Origin: Psychromonas sp. 14N.309.X.WAT.B.A12
Lineage (GTDB): Bacteria; Pseudomonadota; Gammaproteobacteria; Enterobacterales; Psychromonadaceae
Reading direction: 5' to 3'
Assembly: GCF_030397575.1 (NCBI RefSeq)
Contig: NZ_JAPNXS010000002.1
Span: forward strand, 62,001 to 126,000
Length of the DNA stretch: 64,000 bases
Below, piece by piece: positions 44,213-62,993 of this stretch; positions within the stretch are counted from its first letter, which is position 1, and every line of letters starts with the position of its first letter. A program made the position numbers and the translations under genes. Under the pieces are notes generated by a model, which was not told the origin of the DNA, made no database searches, and saw only the letters and a program-made list of their open reading frames with translations.

Positions 44213-44503
44213 ATGTTATGTGCTGTATATAAAAGTATCCGTAAACCGCAAACCTATCTTTTTGTTGCAAAACGAGACGACTTTTCTCGCGTCCCCACTC
44301 CTTTGCTCGAACAATTTGGTCCACCGAAATTAGTCTCTGTATTAAATATTACAGACACCACTAAAATGGCGATGGCAAAAGCACCTAAAGTGATCGCTGA
44401 AGTCACTTTATCTGGTTTTTATTTACAGCTTCCACCACCACCTGTAGATTACTTAAAAGACCATAAACAACGTAAACAACAGCAATTGGAATCAGATTCA
44501 TGA
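44213..44503 (+). CDS. ycgL: YcgL-domain protein
   Basis: A 96-residue protein with the YcgL signature: an N-terminal LCAVYKS and YLFVAKRDDFSRVP, and the C-terminal GFYLQLPPPP. The function is unknown. I chose ATG 44213; an earlier in-frame ATG would add 20 residues not found in relatives. The 3' end overlaps the next gene by 4 bases (ATGA), so they are translationally coupled. The minC-ycgL divergent layout is conserved from E. coli. Confidence 0.88.
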   Translation: MLCAVYKSIRKPQTYLFVAKRDDFSRVPTPLLEQFGPPKLVSVLNITDTTKMAMAKAPKVIAEVTLSGFYLQLPPPPVDYLKDHKQRKQQQLESDS

Positions 44504-55093: not shown

Positions 55094-55951
55094 TTAAGCG
55101 CTAATCTCTGCGCTATGATTGAGATCCCAATTATGCCAAATTGGCTGACAAATATCAGGTAAAAATAGACTTTTTCCTAAATCGCGCCAACGCCCAACAA
55201 AATGGAAGTCACTACCTTGAGAAGCAAGTAAATCATACTCTTTGCTCCACATACCTAATTGTAAACGCATCTGTGGCGATTGTTGCCCCATTGCCACTTC
55301 CATGGCATCTCCACCAGCGGCTTTAAAGGTAATTAATAGCTTTCTTAACCATTTGTTAGATAATCGGTAAGCATCTGGATGTGCTAATACCGCTTGTCCA
55401 CCAGCAGCATGAATGGCCGCTATTGCATCAGCTAAGTCCACCCAATCGTGAGGCACATATCCCGTGTTGCCGCGACTTAAGTATTTATCGAATACTTTAG
55501 GGAATGTAGGTGCAACGCCAATCTCTACAAGATAACGCGCAAAATGGGCTCGAGTGATCGCACCATCACCGGCTAGAGCCTTAGCTCCTTCATAAACATT
55601 TTCAATATTTGCCTTGGCTAAACGTCGCCCCATTTCAATAGCACGCTGTTCACGTTTATTTTTTTGTATGTCAATCAGCTCCAGTAAAGCAGGATGCGTA
55701 GGATCGATATTTAAGCCTACAACGTGAATCTCATGATTTAACCAATTACTGGTGACTTCTATTCCATTAATTAACTGTAATTTTAACTGATGATTTTGAA
55801 TATATTGTGACGCTTCAGCTAAACCATCTATAGTGTCATGATCGGTAATGGCTAAAAAGTGAACTTGTCTGTTTTCAGCACGTTGCACTAATTCACTAGG
55901 GGTAAGTTGTCCATCTGAAGCTTTAGTATGCGAGTGAAGATCAATTAACAT
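55094..55951 (-). CDS. rnm: RNase AM, PHP-domain 5'-3' exonuclease
   Basis: Trims 5' ends of rRNA precursors; formerly YciV. The 285-residue protein begins with the PHP metal motif DLHSHTKASDG, followed by ITDHDTIDG, and contains VLAHPDAYR and SDFHFVGRW, which carry further metal ligands. I chose ATG 55951 with AGGA six bases upstream; the longer frame to 55993 adds 14 residues. It is divergent from the trp operon, as in E. coli. Confidence 0.92.
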   Translation of the reverse strand: MLIDLHSHTKASDGQLTPSELVQRAENRQVHFLAITDHDTIDGLAEASQYIQNHQLKLQLINGIEVTSNWLNHEIHVVGLNIDPTHPALLELIDIQKNKREQRAIEMGRRLAKANIENVYEGAKALAGDGAITRAHFARYLVEIGVAPTFPKVFDKYLSRGNTGYVPHDWVDLADAIAAIHAAGGQAVLAHPDAYRLSNKWLRKLLITFKAAGGDAMEVAMGQQSPQMRLQLGMWSKEYDLLASQGSDFHFVGRWRDLGKSLFLPDICQPIWHNWDLNHSAEISA

Positions 55952-55970
55952 GAATATCCTAAAAATAACC

Positions 55971-55999
55971 TTGACATTAGAAGCAGAATGCAAAAAAAT
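55971..55999 (+). promoter_or_regulatory. trp operon promoter
   Basis: Perfect -35 TTGACA (55971-55976), 17-base spacer and -10 AAAAAT (4 of 6). Transcription should start near 56006, about 24 bases before trpL. I see no clear TrpR operator palindrome overlapping it. Confidence 0.6.
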
Positions 56000-56029
56000 A
56001 ACTCCTAATTAATACGGGATGCATAATAT

Positions 56030-56083
56030 ATGATTTTTAATACAATTACTCTTAAAGATTCTTGGTGGCACTCATTCTCATAA
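56030..56083 (+). CDS. trpL: trp operon leader peptide
   Basis: A 17-residue leader, MIFNTITLKDSWWHSFS, with tandem Trp codons at 56063-56068. Ribosomes stalled there when charged tRNA-Trp is scarce would cover region 1 of the attenuator. GGGA lies about 10 bases before the ATG, a weak Shine-Dalgarno. The peptide lies between the promoter and the terminator hairpin, which is the expected attenuator layout. Confidence 0.88.
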   Translation: MIFNTITLKDSWWHSFS

Positions 56084-56158
56084 GCGAGCAATGAGGTTTT
56101 TGTATATTTAATTTCCCAGAAAAACCTATTTAGAAGCTCGCATATTGCGGGCTTTTTT
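56071..56158 (+). promoter_or_regulatory. trp transcription attenuator
   Basis: The protector (1:2) hairpin is 56071-56079 with 56086-56095, with one bulge. The antiterminator (2:3) has two parts: GCGAGC (56084-56089) with GCTCGC (56136-56141), and AGGTTTTT (56094-56101) with AAAAACCT (56120-56127). The terminator (3:4) is AGCTCGC (56135-56141) with GCGGGCT (56147-56153) and a following U run. The three are mutually exclusive, so the design is the classic trp one. Confidence 0.9.
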
Positions 56159-56194
56159 CATATTTGGAACACACAAAAGTAAAACAGGTAAACC

Positions 56195-56248
56195 ATGATC
56201 ATTTTAAACACCGCCCTTAATTGGCGATGGCAAATAAAAATCAGCTAA
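56195..56248 (+). CDS. Second Trp-containing leader ORF before trpE
   Basis: A 17-codon ORF, MIILNTALNWRWQIKIS, that starts 6 bases after ACAGGTA, a fair Shine-Dalgarno. Its Trp codons are at 56222-56224 and 56228-56230. It lies after the attenuator terminator and 39 bases before the trpE start. Like trpL it is 17 residues with two Trp, and both begin MI and share NT and a Leu. It may be a second regulatory leader; coincidence is possible. Confidence 0.5.
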   Translation: MIILNTALNWRWQIKIS

Positions 56249-56280
56249 ACACTCTATTTGCAATCACTAATTTTTAAGGA
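56215..56280 (+). promoter_or_regulatory. Possible trpE ribosome-binding-site sequestering stem
   Basis: CCTTAATTGG (56215-56224) can pair with TTAAGG (56274-56279) plus CTAA (56267-56270) across a 3-base bulge, with one G-U pair. Inside it GCAAATA (56230-56236) pairs with TATTTGC (56255-56261). The trpE Shine-Dalgarno AAGGA is in the 3' arm, and the Trp codons of the second leader are in or beside the 5' arm. The pairing is AU-rich and its stability is not calculated. Confidence 0.4.
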
Positions 56281-56287
56281 CTTAAAT

Positions 56288-57895
56288 ATGAACACGCACC
56301 ACCCAATCGGCACATTAAAAACGATCGAAGCACCCTGTCAATACATCCAAGATTCATTGGGACTATTTCAGCAAATCAGTGCAGACAGCGACCATCATCT
56401 CCTCTTTGACTCAGCAGAAATTGAAAGCAAAGCGCACTTAAAAAGTTTAATTTTAGTTGATGCTTGTTTAAAAATAACCTGTCAAGGGTTGACCGTTACT
56501 CTAGATGCATTAACGGATAATGGTAAAGACCTACTTACTTTCATTACTCCTAAATTTTCAACGCAATTAATCACAGCACAGCAACCAAGCCAATTACAAC
56601 TTACTTTCCCTCAATCAGATACCAGTGGTGACGAAGACCAACGTCTAAAATCAGCTTCGCCAATGGATGCTATTCGTTGCATCGTAGAGCGTATTAAAAA
56701 GGTATCAACCCATCCTGAAGCGTTGTTCCTCGGTGGAGTGTTTGCCTATGACTTTATCGCAACCTTTGAACAGTTATTAGAGGTACCTGATAGTGAAAAC
56801 ACAACACCTGACTACCTGTTCTATGTTGCAGAGACATTAATGCTACACGATCACCAAACTCAACAAGGTGAAGTGCTAGGCAGTGTATTTGGTGGTTTAT
56901 ATTCAGATGAGAGTGAAGCGCGTATTGCACAGCGTATTGAACAATTACAAGGCTTCTGTACTGACTTTATTGCGCCTGTTAATCAACAAGTAAGCATTGA
57001 TGCGACAGTAAAAGTCGATATCAGTGATGTCGAATATTGCGCTATTGTCGAAGAGTTGAAAACTAATATTGTTAAAGGTGATATTTTTCAAGTAGTCCCT
57101 TCTCGAAGTTTTTCATTGCCTTGCCCCGATCCTATTTCTGCTTACCAAAAGTTAAAAGAAACTAATCCAAGTCCATATATGTTCTACTTAAAAGACAGTG
57201 ATTTTGTTTTGTTTGGGGCATCACCAGAAAGTGCAATTAAATATACGCAAAGCTCAGGTGATGTGGAGATTTACCCCATTGCCGGCACACGTCGTCGTGG
57301 TTTCAATGCAGATGGCAGTATTAATAAAGATTTAGATGGACGCCTAGAATTAGAATTGCGTCTTGATAAAAAAGAGACATCAGAACATCTTATGCTGGTT
57401 GATTTAGCACGCAACGATGTAGCACGAATTAGTCAACCAGGCACTCGCCACGTAGCAGATCTATTGCAAGTTGATCGCTACAGTCATGTGATGCACTTAG
57501 TGTCACGCGTTGTTGGTAAATTACGTGAAGATTTAGATGCATTACATGCATACCAAGCTTGTATGAATATGGGCACCCTAGTAGGTGCGCCAAAAATCAG
57601 TGCTTCTAACCTAGTACGTAAGGTAGAGAAAAAGCGCCGTGGTAGTTATGGTGGTGCAGTCGGTTATATTAATGGTAACGGCGATATGGATAGCTGTATT
57701 GTTATTCGCTCTGCGTTTGTAAAAGACGGGGTTGCCCATGCGCAAGCAGGTGCAGGCGTTGTCTATGATTCAGTGCCGCAATTAGAAGCTGATGAAACCC
57801 GTAGCAAAGCGGCAGCAGTACTTAATGCAGTAGCACTTGCTCATGGCACCACACTCAAGGCTGTTACAGCCAACACCACAGAGCAAGGAGAATAA
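56288..57895 (+). CDS. trpE: Anthranilate synthase component I
   Basis: Makes anthranilate from chorismate with ammonia supplied by TrpG; first committed step of tryptophan synthesis. I chose ATG 56288 (MNTHHPIGTLK) with AAGGA eight bases upstream, giving 535 residues. The chorismate-binding domain shows the FQVVPSRSF region, IAGTRRRGF, LMLVDLARND and GSYGGAVGYINGNG. The Trp feedback site, LLES in E. coli, reads LFDS here (LLFDSAEIESK), which could change sensitivity slightly. TrpG follows 3 bases after. Confidence 0.96.
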   Translation: MNTHHPIGTLKTIEAPCQYIQDSLGLFQQISADSDHHLLFDSAEIESKAHLKSLILVDACLKITCQGLTVTLDALTDNGKDLLTFITPKFSTQLITAQQPSQLQLTFPQSDTSGDEDQRLKSASPMDAIRCIVERIKKVSTHPEALFLGGVFAYDFIATFEQLLEVPDSENTTPDYLFYVAETLMLHDHQTQQGEVLGSVFGGLYSDESEARIAQRIEQLQGFCTDFIAPVNQQVSIDATVKVDISDVEYCAIVEELKTNIVKGDIFQVVPSRSFSLPCPDPISAYQKLKETNPSPYMFYLKDSDFVLFGASPESAIKYTQSSGDVEIYPIAGTRRRGFNADGSINKDLDGRLELELRLDKKETSEHLMLVDLARNDVARISQPGTRHVADLLQVDRYSHVMHLVSRVVGKLREDLDALHAYQACMNMGTLVGAPKISASNLVRKVEKKRRGSYGGAVGYINGNGDMDSCIVIRSAFVKDGVAHAQAGAGVVYDSVPQLEADETRSKAAAVLNAVALAHGTTLKAVTANTTEQGE

Positions 57896-57898
57896 GCA

Positions 57899-58510
57899 AT
57901 GACTTCTACCAACAACAAAGCAACCTTATTCTTTCTTGATAATTTTGACTCATTTACTTACAACTTAGTAGATCAATTCAAATCATCAGGTTACCCAGTC
58001 AAAATTTACCGTAATAACCAAAGTGCTGAACAAATCAAAGCACATATTGATGCCTGTATAGGCGAAGTGGTGTTAGTGTTATCACCTGGTCCAGGTACAC
58101 CAAGTGCTGCAGGGTGTATGATTGACTTAATCACACTGTGTAAAGGACAAGTGCCTATCCTAGGCATATGTCTAGGGCATCAAGCTTTAATTGAACAATA
58201 TGGCGGAGTTGTAGGACAAGCAGATGAAATTCAACATGGTAAATCATCGTTAATTAACCATTGTGCTGACAAGATGTTTGCAGGTTTATCTTTGCCGTTA
58301 TCCGTGGCCCGTTACCACTCATTAGTAGGTACTAAGGTACCAGATACATTACAAACTGTGGCGGATTATAACGATATGTGTATGGCTATCTATCAAGCAC
58401 AAGATAAGGTGATCGGGTTTCAATTCCACCCTGAGTCTATTTTGACCTGTGAAGGGGCACAACTTTTAGAGAACAGCCTTAATTTATTGACTAAATCGGA
58501 GAATGTTTAA
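57899..58510 (+). CDS. trpG: Anthranilate synthase component II
   Basis: Glutamine amidotransferase that gives ammonia to TrpE. The 203-residue protein is a free subunit, not fused to TrpD as in E. coli. The nucleophile is Cys91 in GICLGHQA; His177 and Glu179 lie in FHPESIL. NFDSFTYNLVDQF is the N-terminal signature. The stop is directly followed by the trpD ATG. Confidence 0.96.
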   Translation: MTSTNNKATLFFLDNFDSFTYNLVDQFKSSGYPVKIYRNNQSAEQIKAHIDACIGEVVLVLSPGPGTPSAAGCMIDLITLCKGQVPILGICLGHQALIEQYGGVVGQADEIQHGKSSLINHCADKMFAGLSLPLSVARYHSLVGTKVPDTLQTVADYNDMCMAIYQAQDKVIGFQFHPESILTCEGAQLLENSLNLLTKSENV

Positions 58511-59533
58511 ATGAGCAAATATGATGTATACCCGACCTTGGAACAATTATATCAAGGTCAAACTCTCTCTGAGTCACAAAGCCAAGCATTCTTTGAGCAA
58601 GTTGTCTTAGGTGAAATAGACCCGATTGTACTGTCTTCAGTATTAACTGCGCTAAAAATTAAAGGCGAAACCCCTGCTGAAATAACTGGTGCAGCAAGAG
58701 CCTTGTTAGCACAAGCAAAAACCTTCCCTCGCCCTGATTACCCATTTACCGATATCGTGGGTACGGGCGGTGATGGACTAGGTACTATCAACATTTCAAC
58801 GGCCAGCGCATTTGTTGCTGCAGCTTGTGGTGTAAAGGTTTGTAAACATGGTAGCCGTAGTGTTTCTAGCAAATCTGGTTCATCAGATTTGCTGGCGGCG
58901 TTTGGTGTTAACTTAGATATGTCACCTGAAACAGCGCGCCAATGTTTAGATGATTTGAACGTATGCTTTATTTTTGCACCAAGCTACCATGCAGGAATGC
59001 GTTTTGCAGCACCGGTGCGTGGCGCATTAAAAACTCGCTCAATTTTCAATGTACTTGGCCCGCTAATTAACCCGGCACGCCCTGACTTTGAATTGATGGG
59101 TGTGTATGCACCAGAGTTACTCGTCCCCATTGCTAAAGTACACCAACAATTAGGTATGAAACGTGTCATGGTGGTTTTCGGTAGTGGTTTAGATGAAGTA
59201 GCATTGCATGGTTCAACTCAAGTAGCCGAACTACACAATGATAAAATAACAGAATACACATTAACACCTGAAGATTTTGGTGTGCAGCATCATCCAGTTG
59301 AAAGTATTTTTGGTGGCACACCAGCAGAAAATAAACAGATTATTGAACAAATTTTACAAGGTAAAGGCACTGAAGCTCAGCAATCTGCTGTGGCAATTAA
59401 TGTATCTGCATTATTAGTCTTAAACGGCAAAGCAGATAACTTTAAACAAGGGACTGAAATGGCCCTCAATATCATGAAATCAGGGCAACCTTTAACACTA
59501 TTAAAACAACTTGCGGAGCAAAGTAATGCTTAA
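58511..59533 (+). CDS. trpD: Anthranilate phosphoribosyltransferase
   Basis: Joins anthranilate to PRPP. The 340 residues show the PRPP-binding GTGGDGLGTINIS, KHGSRSVSSKSGSSDLL and the NVLGPLINP region. It starts at the base after the trpG stop and its end overlaps trpCF by 8 bases, so translation is coupled. Confidence 0.96.
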   Translation: MSKYDVYPTLEQLYQGQTLSESQSQAFFEQVVLGEIDPIVLSSVLTALKIKGETPAEITGAARALLAQAKTFPRPDYPFTDIVGTGGDGLGTINISTASAFVAAACGVKVCKHGSRSVSSKSGSSDLLAAFGVNLDMSPETARQCLDDLNVCFIFAPSYHAGMRFAAPVRGALKTRSIFNVLGPLINPARPDFELMGVYAPELLVPIAKVHQQLGMKRVMVVFGSGLDEVALHGSTQVAELHNDKITEYTLTPEDFGVQHHPVESIFGGTPAENKQIIEQILQGKGTEAQQSAVAINVSALLVLNGKADNFKQGTEMALNIMKSGQPLTLLKQLAEQSNA

Positions 59534-60932
59534 TGACCAAAGTTTACAAGATACAATTTTAGGCAAGATTGTTGATGACAAATTAATCTGGGTTGAACAA
59601 CGTAAACAGCAACAACCTTTAATTACCTTTAAAGATCAATTAATAGAAAGTGATCGCCACTTCTATCAAGCACTCGACCAAGAAGACAGTGTATTCATTC
59701 TTGAGTGTAAAAAAGCGTCACCTTCAAAAGGGTTAATTCGTAAAGAGTTCGATTTAGATTTAATTGCCAGCACTTACAAAAACTATGCTTCAGCTATTTC
59801 AGTATTAACTGATGAAAAGTATTTTCAAGGTGACTTTGAATATATTAATACTGTACGTTCTCAAGTTTCTCAGCCGGTTATTTGTAAAGACTTTATTGTT
59901 GACCCATACCAGATTTACTTAGCACGTTATTATCAAGCAGATGCGATCTTATTGATGCTATCGGTATTAGATGATGATGCTTACCAAGCTTATCGTGATA
60001 CCGCTCATAGCCTCAATATGGGTGTATTAACCGAAGTCAGTAACGAGCATGAATTAGTACGTGCTATTGCCCTTGGTGCTAAAGTTATTGGCATTAATAA
60101 TAGAGACTTACGTGATCTGAGTATTGACCTAAACCGTACCAAAGAGTTAGCGGTTAAGATTCCACAGGATCGCATTGTGATTTCTGAATCAGGCATTTAC
60201 GAACACCAACAAATAAAAGACCTTAGCGCCTATGCGAATGGTTTTTTAGTAGGCAGTTCAATCATGTCACAGGCAAACATTGACTTTGCTTGTCGTAAAC
60301 TGATTTTAGGTGAAAACAAAGTGTGTGGTTTGACGCACGCTCGAGATGCCGCTGATGTACATAAAGCGGGAGCGGTTTACGGTGGATTAATTTTTGTCGA
60401 AAAATCACCTCGTTTTGTAGAATTAGAGCAAGCACGTTTAGTGATGTTAGGCGCACCACTCGCTTATGTCGGCGTTTTCCAAAATGAAGAAGTTGAGCTA
60501 GTTGCTTATACTGCCAAAAGCCTAGGCTTAACTGCAGTACAACTTCACGGTGATGAATCACCTAAATATATTAAAGAGTTACTTGCAGTATTGCCTAAAA
60601 ACTGTGAAGTTTGGAAAGCACACGGCATTACTGACAGCTTACCTGAGTTTGAAAAATACAATGTAAGCAAGCATATCTTAGACACACGTGTTGGCGAGCA
60701 AAGTGGTGGCACAGGTCAACGCTTTGACTGGACTCTACTTAATCAACAAAACTGTGATAAAAATAGCATTATTATCGCAGGTGGTCTTAACCCTGAAAAT
60801 GCACAGCAAGCCGCATTAATAGGCTGTGCAGGATTAGATTTCAACTCAGGTGTTGAATCTGCTCCAGGAAAGAAAGACGCGGACAAATTAAACCGTAGCT
60901 TCTCTGAAATTCGTCGATACATGACGCGATAA
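59526..60932 (+). CDS. trpCF: Bifunctional indole-3-glycerol-phosphate synthase / phosphoribosylanthranilate isomerase
   Basis: Fusion enzyme of 468 residues. The IGPS half (about 1-255) shows FILECKKASPSKGLIRKEFD, the PVICKDFIVDPYQI segment and IGINNRDLRDLSIDL with VISESGI. The PRAI half (about 256-468) starts KVCGLTHARDAADVHKAGA and has the VQLHGDESPKYI and IIIAGGLNPENAQ segments. I chose ATG 59526 with GGAG upstream; it overlaps trpD by 8 bases. Confidence 0.95.
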   Translation: MLNDQSLQDTILGKIVDDKLIWVEQRKQQQPLITFKDQLIESDRHFYQALDQEDSVFILECKKASPSKGLIRKEFDLDLIASTYKNYASAISVLTDEKYFQGDFEYINTVRSQVSQPVICKDFIVDPYQIYLARYYQADAILLMLSVLDDDAYQAYRDTAHSLNMGVLTEVSNEHELVRAIALGAKVIGINNRDLRDLSIDLNRTKELAVKIPQDRIVISESGIYEHQQIKDLSAYANGFLVGSSIMSQANIDFACRKLILGENKVCGLTHARDAADVHKAGAVYGGLIFVEKSPRFVELEQARLVMLGAPLAYVGVFQNEEVELVAYTAKSLGLTAVQLHGDESPKYIKELLAVLPKNCEVWKAHGITDSLPEFEKYNVSKHILDTRVGEQSGGTGQRFDWTLLNQQNCDKNSIIIAGGLNPENAQQAALIGCAGLDFNSGVESAPGKKDADKLNRSFSEIRRYMTR

Positions 60933-60981
60933 ATGATGTTGATATTAGACAACATTAAACCGATTAAAAGGTAATATAAAA

Positions 60982-62169
60982 ATGGAAACATTAAACGCTT
61001 ATTTTGGTGACTTTGGTGGTATGTATGTACCACAAATATTAGTCCCAGCATTAAAACAACTTGAAGCTGAATTTCTAAAAGCGCAGCAAGATGAATCATT
61101 TCAAGAAGAATTTAAAGAACTACTGACAGAGTATGCTGGTCGCCCTACTCCACTGACTTTGTGCCGTAATTTAACCAAGGGTAAAAAAACCAAGTTATAC
61201 CTAAAACGTGAGGACTTGTTACACGGTGGCGCACACAAAACTAATCAAGTATTAGGCCAAGCTTTATTAGCAAAACGCATGGGTAAAACAGAGATCATTG
61301 CTGAAACAGGCGCAGGTCAACACGGTGTAGCAACAGCATTAGCCTGTGCATTACTTGGTTTAAAGTGCCGAGTTTACATGGGTGCAGTAGACTGTGAACG
61401 CCAAAAACCTAATATGTTCAGAATGCGTCTAATGGGGGCTGAAGTGATTCCAGTTACTTCTGGCTCTTCAACATTAAAAGATGCATGTAATGAAGCACTT
61501 CGTGATTGGGCTGGTAGCTACGAAACTGCGCATTACCTGTTAGGTACTGCTGCAGGACCACACCCATTCCCTACCATTGTCCGTGAATACCAAAAAGTCA
61601 TTGGTGAAGAAGCGAAGCAGCAATGTTTACGTAAAGAAGGTATTTTACCTGATAAAGTAATTGCTTGTGTTGGTGGTGGGTCTAATGCGATTGGTATTTT
61701 TGCTGACTTTATTGAAGAAGAAAACGTGCAGCTAATTGGTGTAGAACCAGGTGGCCACGGAATAGAAACGGGCGAGCATGGTTGTCCTATTGCTTGTGGT
61801 ACAGATGGTATATTCTTTGGAATGAAATCATTGATGATGCAAGATGACCATGGCCAAATTCAAGAATCATACTCAATTTCAGCTGGTTTAGATTTTCCAT
61901 CAGTGGGGCCACAACATGCTCACTTAGCAAAAATAGGCCGCGCAGAATATGTCAATGCAACCGATGATGAAGCGCTACTTGCATTTAAAGCATTAGCCGA
62001 GCAGGAAGGTATTATTCCAGCTTTGGAATCATCTCATGCTTTAGCACACGCATTAAAAATTATTGAGCATGATGATAAAGAACAGGTCATCATTGTGAAT
62101 TTATCAGGACGTGGCGATAAAGATATCTTCACTGTCGCAGACATATTTGAAAAGAGAGGTATGATCTAA
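60982..62169 (+). CDS. trpB: Tryptophan synthase beta chain
   Basis: PLP enzyme that joins indole and serine. Lys86 in [16 protein letters not shown] holds PLP. The [10 protein letters not shown] phosphate-binding loop, the catalytic Glu in [12 protein letters not shown] and the C-terminal SGRGDKD are intact. Length 395 matches E. coli TrpB (397). A 49-base gap with AAGG separates it from trpCF, and its stop overlaps the trpA start by one base. Confidence 0.97.
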
Positions 62170-62993
62170 TGGCACACGATCTACAATCACAGCGATACGC
62201 AAAATTATTCGACAAACTAGCAAAAGCGAATCAAGGTGCCTTTGTCCCATTTGTGACAGTTGGAGACCCTGACCGCGAGCAGTCGTTAAATATTATTGAT
62301 ACACTAGTTAAAGCAGGCGCAGATGCACTTGAATTAGGCATCCCATTTTCAGATCCCGTTGCTGACGGCGTGGTGATTCAAGATGCTTCAATTCGTGCCT
62401 TAAACTCAGGTACTACACCGCAAGTATGCTTTGAAATAATCAAAGAGATTCGTGCAAGGCATCCTGAAACTCCTATCGGTTTATTGTTATATGTTAACCT
62501 TGTTTATCGTAATGGCATTGAATCTTTCTACCAAGAGTGTAAAGCAGCTGGCGTTGATTCAATTCTGATTGCGGATGTGCCGTTACATGAAAGTGCACCT
62601 TACCGAGCAGCAGCAGACAAAGTGGGGTTACAACAAATCTTTATTGCACCACCTAATGGTGATAAAGCAACTTTAAAACAAGTTGCTGAATATGGCCAAG
62701 GTTATACTTACTTATTAAGTCGTGCCGGTGTCACTGGCGCTGATGCTAAAGCAGGTATGCCCGTTGAACATATGCTTGAAACATTAGGTGAGCATAACGC
62801 CCCTCCTTCGTTACTGGGCTTTGGTATTTCTCAACCTGAACAGGTTGCAGATGCTATCAAATCGGGTGCAGCTGGAGCTATTTCTGGGTCCGCGGTAGTT
62901 AAAGTGATTGAGCGTAATCTAGGTAATCCGGAAAAAATGCAATCAGAAATGACTGAATTTATCAGTGCTATGAAAGCTGCAACATTCAAATAA
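62169..62993 (+). CDS. trpA: Tryptophan synthase alpha chain
   Basis: Cleaves indole-3-glycerol phosphate to indole, which is channelled to TrpB. The catalytic residues Glu55 ([11 protein letters not shown]) and Asp66 (VADG) match E. coli Glu49 and Asp60. [11 protein letters not shown] and [11 protein letters not shown] are phosphate-binding segments. The 274-residue length is typical. One-base overlap with trpB. Confidence 0.97.

Follow-up and report, generated by a model that had tools for sequence, protein, structure and literature searches.

The standard textbook example of attenuation is the trp operon, and the trpL leader of Escherichia coli, an open reading frame (ORF) with Trp codons before trpE, is part of its classical attenuator. 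In a 64,000-nucleotide stretch of the genome of Psychromonas sp. 14N.309.X.WAT.B.A12 (the window in what follows), the operon starts with a leader of this classical type (Rfam RF00513), and a second short ORF with Trp codons lies between the terminator of the attenuator and trpE. The question raised by this locus is what a second leader for the same amino acid might do there. The relevant features are as follows.

56030–56083, + strand: first trp leader peptide ORF (MIFNTITLKDSWWHSFS, then stop), with Trp-Trp codons at 56063–56068
56132–56156, + strand: intrinsic terminator of the ordinary trp attenuator, with a U-tract after it
56186–56188, + strand: AGG resembling a Shine-Dalgarno sequence, 6 nt upstream of the ATG of the second leader ORF, read from the sequence
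56195–56248, + strand: second leader ORF (ORF2), 17 codons by translation (MIILNTALNWRWQIKIS, then stop), conserved in the genus and in other genera
56215–56220, + strand: anti-Shine-Dalgarno (anti-SD) CCUUAA in the codons preceding the first Trp codon, partner of 56274–56279
56222–56230, + strand: regulatory codons TGG-CGA-TGG (Trp-Arg-Trp), with Trp codons at 56222–56224 and 56228–56230 and CGA at 56225–56227
56230–56236, + strand: 5' arm of an inner stem, GCAAATA, whose first base is the final one of the second Trp codon (from folding)
56255–56261, + strand: 3' arm of the inner stem, TATTTGC (from folding)
56274–56280, + strand: Shine-Dalgarno (SD) region of trpE, TTAAGGA, partner of the anti-SD; the SD itself is AAGGA at 56276–56280
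56288–57895, + strand: trpE, first gene of trpEGD(CF)BA, matching NF010079 and TIGR00565 over cut-off, with its ATG at 56288–56290

The rest of the operon occupies 57899–62993 (trpG from 57899, trpD from 58511, trpCF ending at 60932, trpB at 60982–62169 and trpA at 62169–62993), and an RNase RNM gene lies upstream in the opposite direction. A search of 55400–56500 with the Rfam Trp_leader model gave a sole match, at 56057–56160, whose 28.3 bits are below the gathering score of 41; the second element was left unmatched. The terminator search of the window found no second terminator-like site between ORF2 and trpE. ORF2 therefore differs from a classical attenuator leader in that it lies beyond the terminator, lacks one of its own in the window and forms part of a stem that holds the trpE SD.

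The preliminary description of this DNA had recognized a 17-codon ORF with two Trp codons and its own SD in this position. Its coordinates are right, and an ORF2 with Trp-Arg is present upstream of trpE in 23 of 24 Psychromonas genomes. The exception, L021, has neither leader and was excluded from the set of 23 sequences; a first-leader-like ORF is whole in 22 of the 24 genomes and partial, with only its end, in L011. The first Trp codon of ORF2 is conserved in 23/23 and the second in 21/23, being gone in L022 and L024, where ORF2 ends W-R-stop. The codon table covers 21 of the 23 sequences (L016 and L020, one codon shorter, were omitted), and the Arg codon is CGA in all 21; CGA is also read from the leaders of L016 and L020. 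By comparison, CGA makes up 9.9% of the Arg codons in ten ORFs of the window. The distance from the first Trp codon to trpE is 60–71 nt except in L011. Because the 23 sequences are related, these counts are not independent. That ORF2 is real and conserved is almost certain. A third ORF, starting from an ATG inside GGCGATGG and open for 16 codons in the window, was rejected, since by eye it is not conserved in relatives.

The explanation that we regard as likely is that Psychromonas, mostly without the repressor TrpR, places transcription attenuation and then translational attenuation by SD release in series, both sensing charged tRNA-Trp. The first leader would work as a classical transcription attenuator, and transcripts that read through it would carry ORF2. 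When charged tRNA-Trp is ample, ribosomes would move past the Trp codons and come off ORF2; the anti-SD would pair with the trpE SD and lower trpE initiation. When it is scarce, a ribosome whose A site holds the first Trp codon would wait there, covering the anti-SD and leaving the trpE SD free. The model thus supposes that ORF2 is translated, that ribosomes stall on it and that the amount of TrpE responds, and it builds on computed properties of the leader, namely ORF2 itself, the conservation of its Trp codons, conserved complementarity and a predicted opening.

The stem that had been described as placing the trpE SD in its 3' arm is real, and its SD-facing part pairs CCUUAA (56215–56220) with UUAAGG (56274–56279). 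The Trp codons had been put in or next to the 5' arm, which can now be given more exactly: the anti-SD lies just before the first Trp codon, and a second stem begins with the final base of the second. In 17 of 23 Psychromonas, the SD has its best partner in the 18 nt that precede the first Trp codon, with none of 307 other leader segments equal to them, as is also the case in the window's own leader (0/307). In L010, L012, L013, L015, L017 and L011, the segments pairing equally well number 45, 24, 11, 38, 12 and 1 of 307, respectively. All six pairs of the six-base anti-SD block can form in 16/23 sequences and at least five in 20/23. In the first subgroup of the genus, the block reads GCCCTT, GTCCTT, GTCTTT or ATCCTT, with GCACTT in L010; in the second subgroup, it lies six bases farther upstream and reads ATCCTT, ATCTTT (L015) or ATCCTG (L012 and L013). 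L012 and L013 have the SD AAGGAC and a nearer GTCC block, with a switch predicted in L013 and none in L012.

The anti-SD and SD bases are conserved in Psychromonas while much of the spacer varies, and the codons within the block are unusual. Its Leu codon is CTT in 15/17 and CTG in 2/17 sequences; the remaining 4 of the 21 have Phe TTT, which keeps the pairing through a U-G pair. In the ten ORFs of the window, CTT accounts for 10.8% of Leu codons and TTA for 54%, and the Leu at codon 4 of ORF2 in the first subgroup is TTA in 8/8. Codon choice in ORF2 tracks the pairing rather than the peptide. Covariation had been proposed as a check, and changes on both sides are seen at one pair: the outermost anti-SD/SD pair is A-U in 11, G-C in 5, G-U in 2 and unpaired in 5 of the 23 sequences and differs on both sides between the subgroups, but no pair is altered on both sides inside either subgroup (the second-subgroup alignment held 10 of 13 sequences, with L011, L013 and L019 omitted), and the pair statistics do not exceed those of shuffles. 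In the inner stem, six core pairs are invariant in the ten closest genomes. Formal covariation was set aside as the main proof; because both-side changes are missing within the subgroups, it is the conserved complementarity and the choice of codons that carry the argument.

Folding of the 23 Psychromonas leaders, with the ribosome modelled as 27 blocked bases and with 100 shuffles per stretch, bears on whether the trpE SD is paired and can be released. It is predicted to be paired in most of them: the median unpaired value of the free SD is 0.04, against 0.56 in shuffles (the median of the mean values of the species). A ribosome placed on the first Trp codon raises the median to 0.63; for the second codon place, the stop and the start, the medians are 0.45, 0.18 and 0.05, respectively. 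The free value is at or below the 5% level of shuffles in 16/23 leaders, and the rise reaches that level in 15/23. The rise exceeds 0.1 in 18/23 at 37 °C and in 19/23 at 15 and 5 °C, temperature leaving the overall picture across the 23 unchanged. In the second subgroup, a ribosome at the first Trp position frees the SD more than one at the second in 12 of 13 species, because the anti-SD is covered from the first position alone, which agrees with L022 and L024 having lost their second Trp codon.

The earlier proposal that a ribosome at the Trp codons opens the stem is thus supported by prediction in most Psychromonas, but the effect is weak in the window and lacking or reversed in L010 and L015, where the SD is open from the start, and in L012 and L018, where it stays unopened. 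For the window's own leader, the predicted change is 0.38 to 0.47 in the main folding set; in the temperature series it is 0.38 to 0.57 at 37 °C and 0.38 to 0.43 at 15 °C and is reversed, 0.40 to 0.33, at 5 °C. Its fold gives z = −2.04 against shuffles, with 8/200 as good, and z = −1.11 with 27/200 when longer flanks are included, so that the fold of the window alone is only moderately better than shuffles. Across species, an unpaired value of at most 0.1 is found in 12/23 Psychromonas and in 1/38 scorable relatives lacking ORF2 (38 of 59 were scored, the other 21 having no assignable SD under the rule used); L011 scores 0.67 in this comparison, its anti-SD lying outside the folded stretch. 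The leader of L011 has about 90 extra nt between ORF2 and trpE, and anti-SD pairing is still predicted in it, with the SD closed at first and opened by a ribosome at the first Trp codon (0.13 to 0.88).

Outside the genus, the search for second leaders required two Trp codons or a TGGCG core, so that one with a single Trp codon could be missed (L145 was spotted by eye), and group codes such as f25g25, f7 and f21 were matched to names by sequence likeness. Related leaders with the core TGGCGATGG are found in Motilimonas, most Aeromonas, a second genus of that family (f25g25) and some Rheinheimera. Among 80 named loci, several of which are the same Psychromonas genomes, a WRW ORF is present in 3/3 Motilimonas and 14/17 Aeromonas. 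A. lacus (L061) has retained the second Trp only, and A. simiae (L073) and A. diversa (L077) have no leader within 400 nt before the match. One of three Rheinheimera (L098) has WRWW. Conservation in relatives, the check first proposed, holds in Psychromonas; in Moritella, which had been named for this check, no second ORF with two Trp codons was seen in five loci (two named and three further), and the two named ones have no core either. The Agarivorans-like loci and most Alteromonadaceae examined have neither such an ORF nor the core, and some Vibrio-like and other loci have no leader at all under the search rule. Among 60 further stretches, 14 have the core (3/4 Aeromonas-like, 10/10 f25g25 and one f7g38), and variant forms are seen in L145 (one Trp, W-CGA), L176 (G-R-W-R) and L146 (an attenuator-like unit with WWW). 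In L146 (genome G250, f7g87), two attenuator-like units stand in tandem; both have a leader ORF with WWW and, by eye, a hairpin with a T run that resembles a terminator. A permissive second-leader pattern matches at least 129 of 394 genomes and is useful for f1, f12 and f25; no totals were taken from it, because many of the matches listed elsewhere look like chance. Another TGGCGATGG at 44367–44375 of the window, in a 15-codon open frame (ILQTPLKWRWQKHLK) overlapping a 116-codon frame, is probably chance too.

Among the WR-type ORF2s seen, which include 13/13 tabulated Aeromonas with CGA, L098 alone has another Arg codon (CGC), and the sequences that have lost one Trp (L022, L024, L061, L145 and L176) all keep CGA. 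This near-invariant CGA is not accounted for by the peptide alone, nor by the explanation preferred here.

The sequestering of the SD mostly does not travel with ORF2. As a partner of the SD, the 18 nt that precede the Trp codon mostly do not stand out in the sequences scored from Aeromonas, f25g25 and Motilimonas (two of the latter), with exceptions in L131 (6/337 windows as good), L132 (best window at w−13) and L126 (w+1 as the best window for the SD of the third ORF); L128, L050 and L145 gave no SD in this survey, and some Aeromonas entries had one start only. In the two Rheinheimera-type sequences, TTTCCTGG pairs with CAGGA in a similar way at the Trp codon, and in both the best window of the leader starts at w−15. 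SD sequestering by ORF2 in every clade is accordingly not borne out: ORF2 is common to these groups and the SD switch mostly is not, since the anti-SD is mostly missing in Aeromonas, f25g25 and Motilimonas. In f25g25 (L127–L136), ORF2 has 44–46 codons and ends in DxDIASQVIRQ(I/V)PDD and two more residues. Its last 21 codons have 17 variable columns at third, 6 at first and 5 at second positions, a bias that makes its translation very likely, and its stop lies 5–6 nt before the trpE SD in the 10 sequences. In Aeromonas, a third mini-ORF follows ORF2 (MNIGKQHHTQGNAL in L058), with its TGA overlapping the trpE ATG (ATGA). It starts 58–74 nt from the first Trp codon of ORF2 (11 sequences), close to the 60–71 nt that separate this codon from trpE in Psychromonas.

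The distribution of TrpR, searched with PF01371 and counted over cut-off, runs partly alongside that of ORF2. No TrpR was found in 20 of 24 Psychromonas genomes, including that of the window, two of these having weak matches below cut-off; both TrpR and ORF2 are present in G002, G007, G008 and G019. None was found in 16/16 Motilimonas, Aeromonas-like and f25g25 genomes tried or in two f7g38 genomes, one of which was seen with ORF2. TrpR is present in Moritella (3/3), f6 (2/2), Vibrio-like f21 (2/2) and an enteric-like genome (1/1), and no ORF2 was seen in the TrpR-bearing Moritella, f6 and f21. TrpR is also missing from the f10 (four) and f7 (nine) genomes tried, most of which have no ORF2. 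The link is therefore loose, and absence of TrpR is not sufficient for ORF2, because the four f10 and other f7 genomes lack both.

A wider proposal, which we offer tentatively and hold to be possible rather than probable, is that ORF2, with its Trp-Arg(CGA)-Trp, represents an old second sensor of tRNA-Trp that is common to Aeromonadaceae, Psychromonas, Motilimonas and part of Rheinheimera and has replaced a lost TrpR. Its outputs would differ: Psychromonas and Rheinheimera would release the SD, f25g25 would use a stop next to the trpE SD, as in rtpLP, and Aeromonas a coupled third mini-ORF. The CGA would be functional in the stall. In a TrpE tree of 96 sequences (43 with ORF2), the ORF2 label needs four changes. 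A single origin of ORF2 is not settled by this tree, as four changes fit one origin with losses, transfer or repeated gains alike.

Other readings of the second leader would do without SD release. A ribosome stalled at the Trp codons of ORF2 could shield a G-poor stretch from Rho, so that the second layer would be antitermination; the tna operon has a Rho-type scheme of this sort with the opposite sign. The 45 nt after the second Trp codon (56231–56275) hold 9 C and 2 G, the stretch after ORF2 reads as C-rich in Aeromonas, and ORF2 is followed by no intrinsic terminator in the window. This stretch is, however, short for a Rho site, and the conserved anti-SD, the CTT bias and the opening predicted at the first Trp codon would be left unexplained; we consider it unlikely that ORF2 acts through Rho. 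The overlap of ORF2 with the sequestering stem and the Aeromonas mini-ORF that ends on the trpE start codon would also suit an upstream ORF that opens the trpE start by translational coupling, without Trp sensing and with incidental Trp codons. Such coupling has a slim chance, as it has to be set against a first Trp codon and a CGA that are invariant in the 21 tabulated sequences and against a ribosome at the ORF2 stop that leaves the SD mostly closed in the model (0.18).

It is very improbable that ORF2 is what remains of another ordinary transcription attenuator whose terminator was lost, and that it is conserved by descent more than by use. The first Trp codon, the CGA and the frame are kept in 23/24 Psychromonas and the core is kept in other genera, and the anti-SD and SD bases are conserved though much of the spacer varies; what speaks for such a remnant are the two leader-plus-terminator units of G250, with terminators recognized by eye, the second of which has three Trp codons, and a hairpin with a short T run read after ORF2 in L143 (f7g38). 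Serial attenuation with SD release is the reading we retain for Psychromonas.

Leaders that control translation of the next gene exist elsewhere. The leader peptide of B. subtilis rtpA holds Trp codons, and the block there is a ribosome at the leader stop codon, with the stop of rtpLP next to the SD, and not an anti-SD stem. In the window, the distance from the ORF2 stop (56246–56248) to the start of the SD at 56276 is 27 nt, so that a stop beside the SD is lacking; the long ORF2 of f25g25 looks more like the rtpA leader. For rtpA (anti-TRAP), PMC11255114 describes tandem transcription and translation sensing of uncharged tRNA-Trp, in which ribosomes that stall in a tRNA-dependent manner control how the following gene is translated (Chen and Yanofsky 2003, 2004). 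As described there, the first layer is a T-box and the target is rtpA, whereas in Psychromonas the first layer is an attenuator and the target is trpE. The actinobacterial LEU element before leuA offers a parallel for the pairing: its predicted leader ORF contains consecutive regulatory codons, and these pair with the SD belonging to the first biosynthetic gene (PMC1262725). It differs in that it concerns leucine and actinobacteria and forms a pseudoknot, and the Leucine section of that paper has no serial transcription attenuator. The leader of Salmonella mgtCBR contains two short ORFs in tandem, and each of them belongs to an attenuator (PMC3641672); the tandem arrangement is what they share with the present leader. 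Cysteine genes of M. smegmatis are stated to be regulated by translation attenuation (PMC13236596), and polycysteine leader ORFs of mycobacteria, leaderless by the title of the study, appear in the reference list of PMC9094748 (Canestrari 2020). These resemble ORF2 as amino-acid-responsive attenuation before biosynthetic genes. The study cited in PMC13236596 is presumably the same one. The mycobacterial ORFs differ in amino acid, in organism and, going by that title, in being leaderless. We know of no case in which they are combined with another leader that responds to cysteine as well. In the open full text of PMC, with subscription papers outside the scope, no title or abstract start among the matches listed concerns a second trp leader or translational attenuation of trpE. 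The type of attenuation is already known, and the arrangement of two in series on trpE was not found in the papers searched.

For Psychromonas, this means that a ribosome short of Trp probably uncovers the start signal of trpE through ORF2, and that the supply of Trp would be checked twice in a row. If this is true, two leaders for the same amino acid would govern first the transcription and then the translation of one mRNA, so that the cell would act twice on one signal, and the double leader could substitute for the missing repressor.
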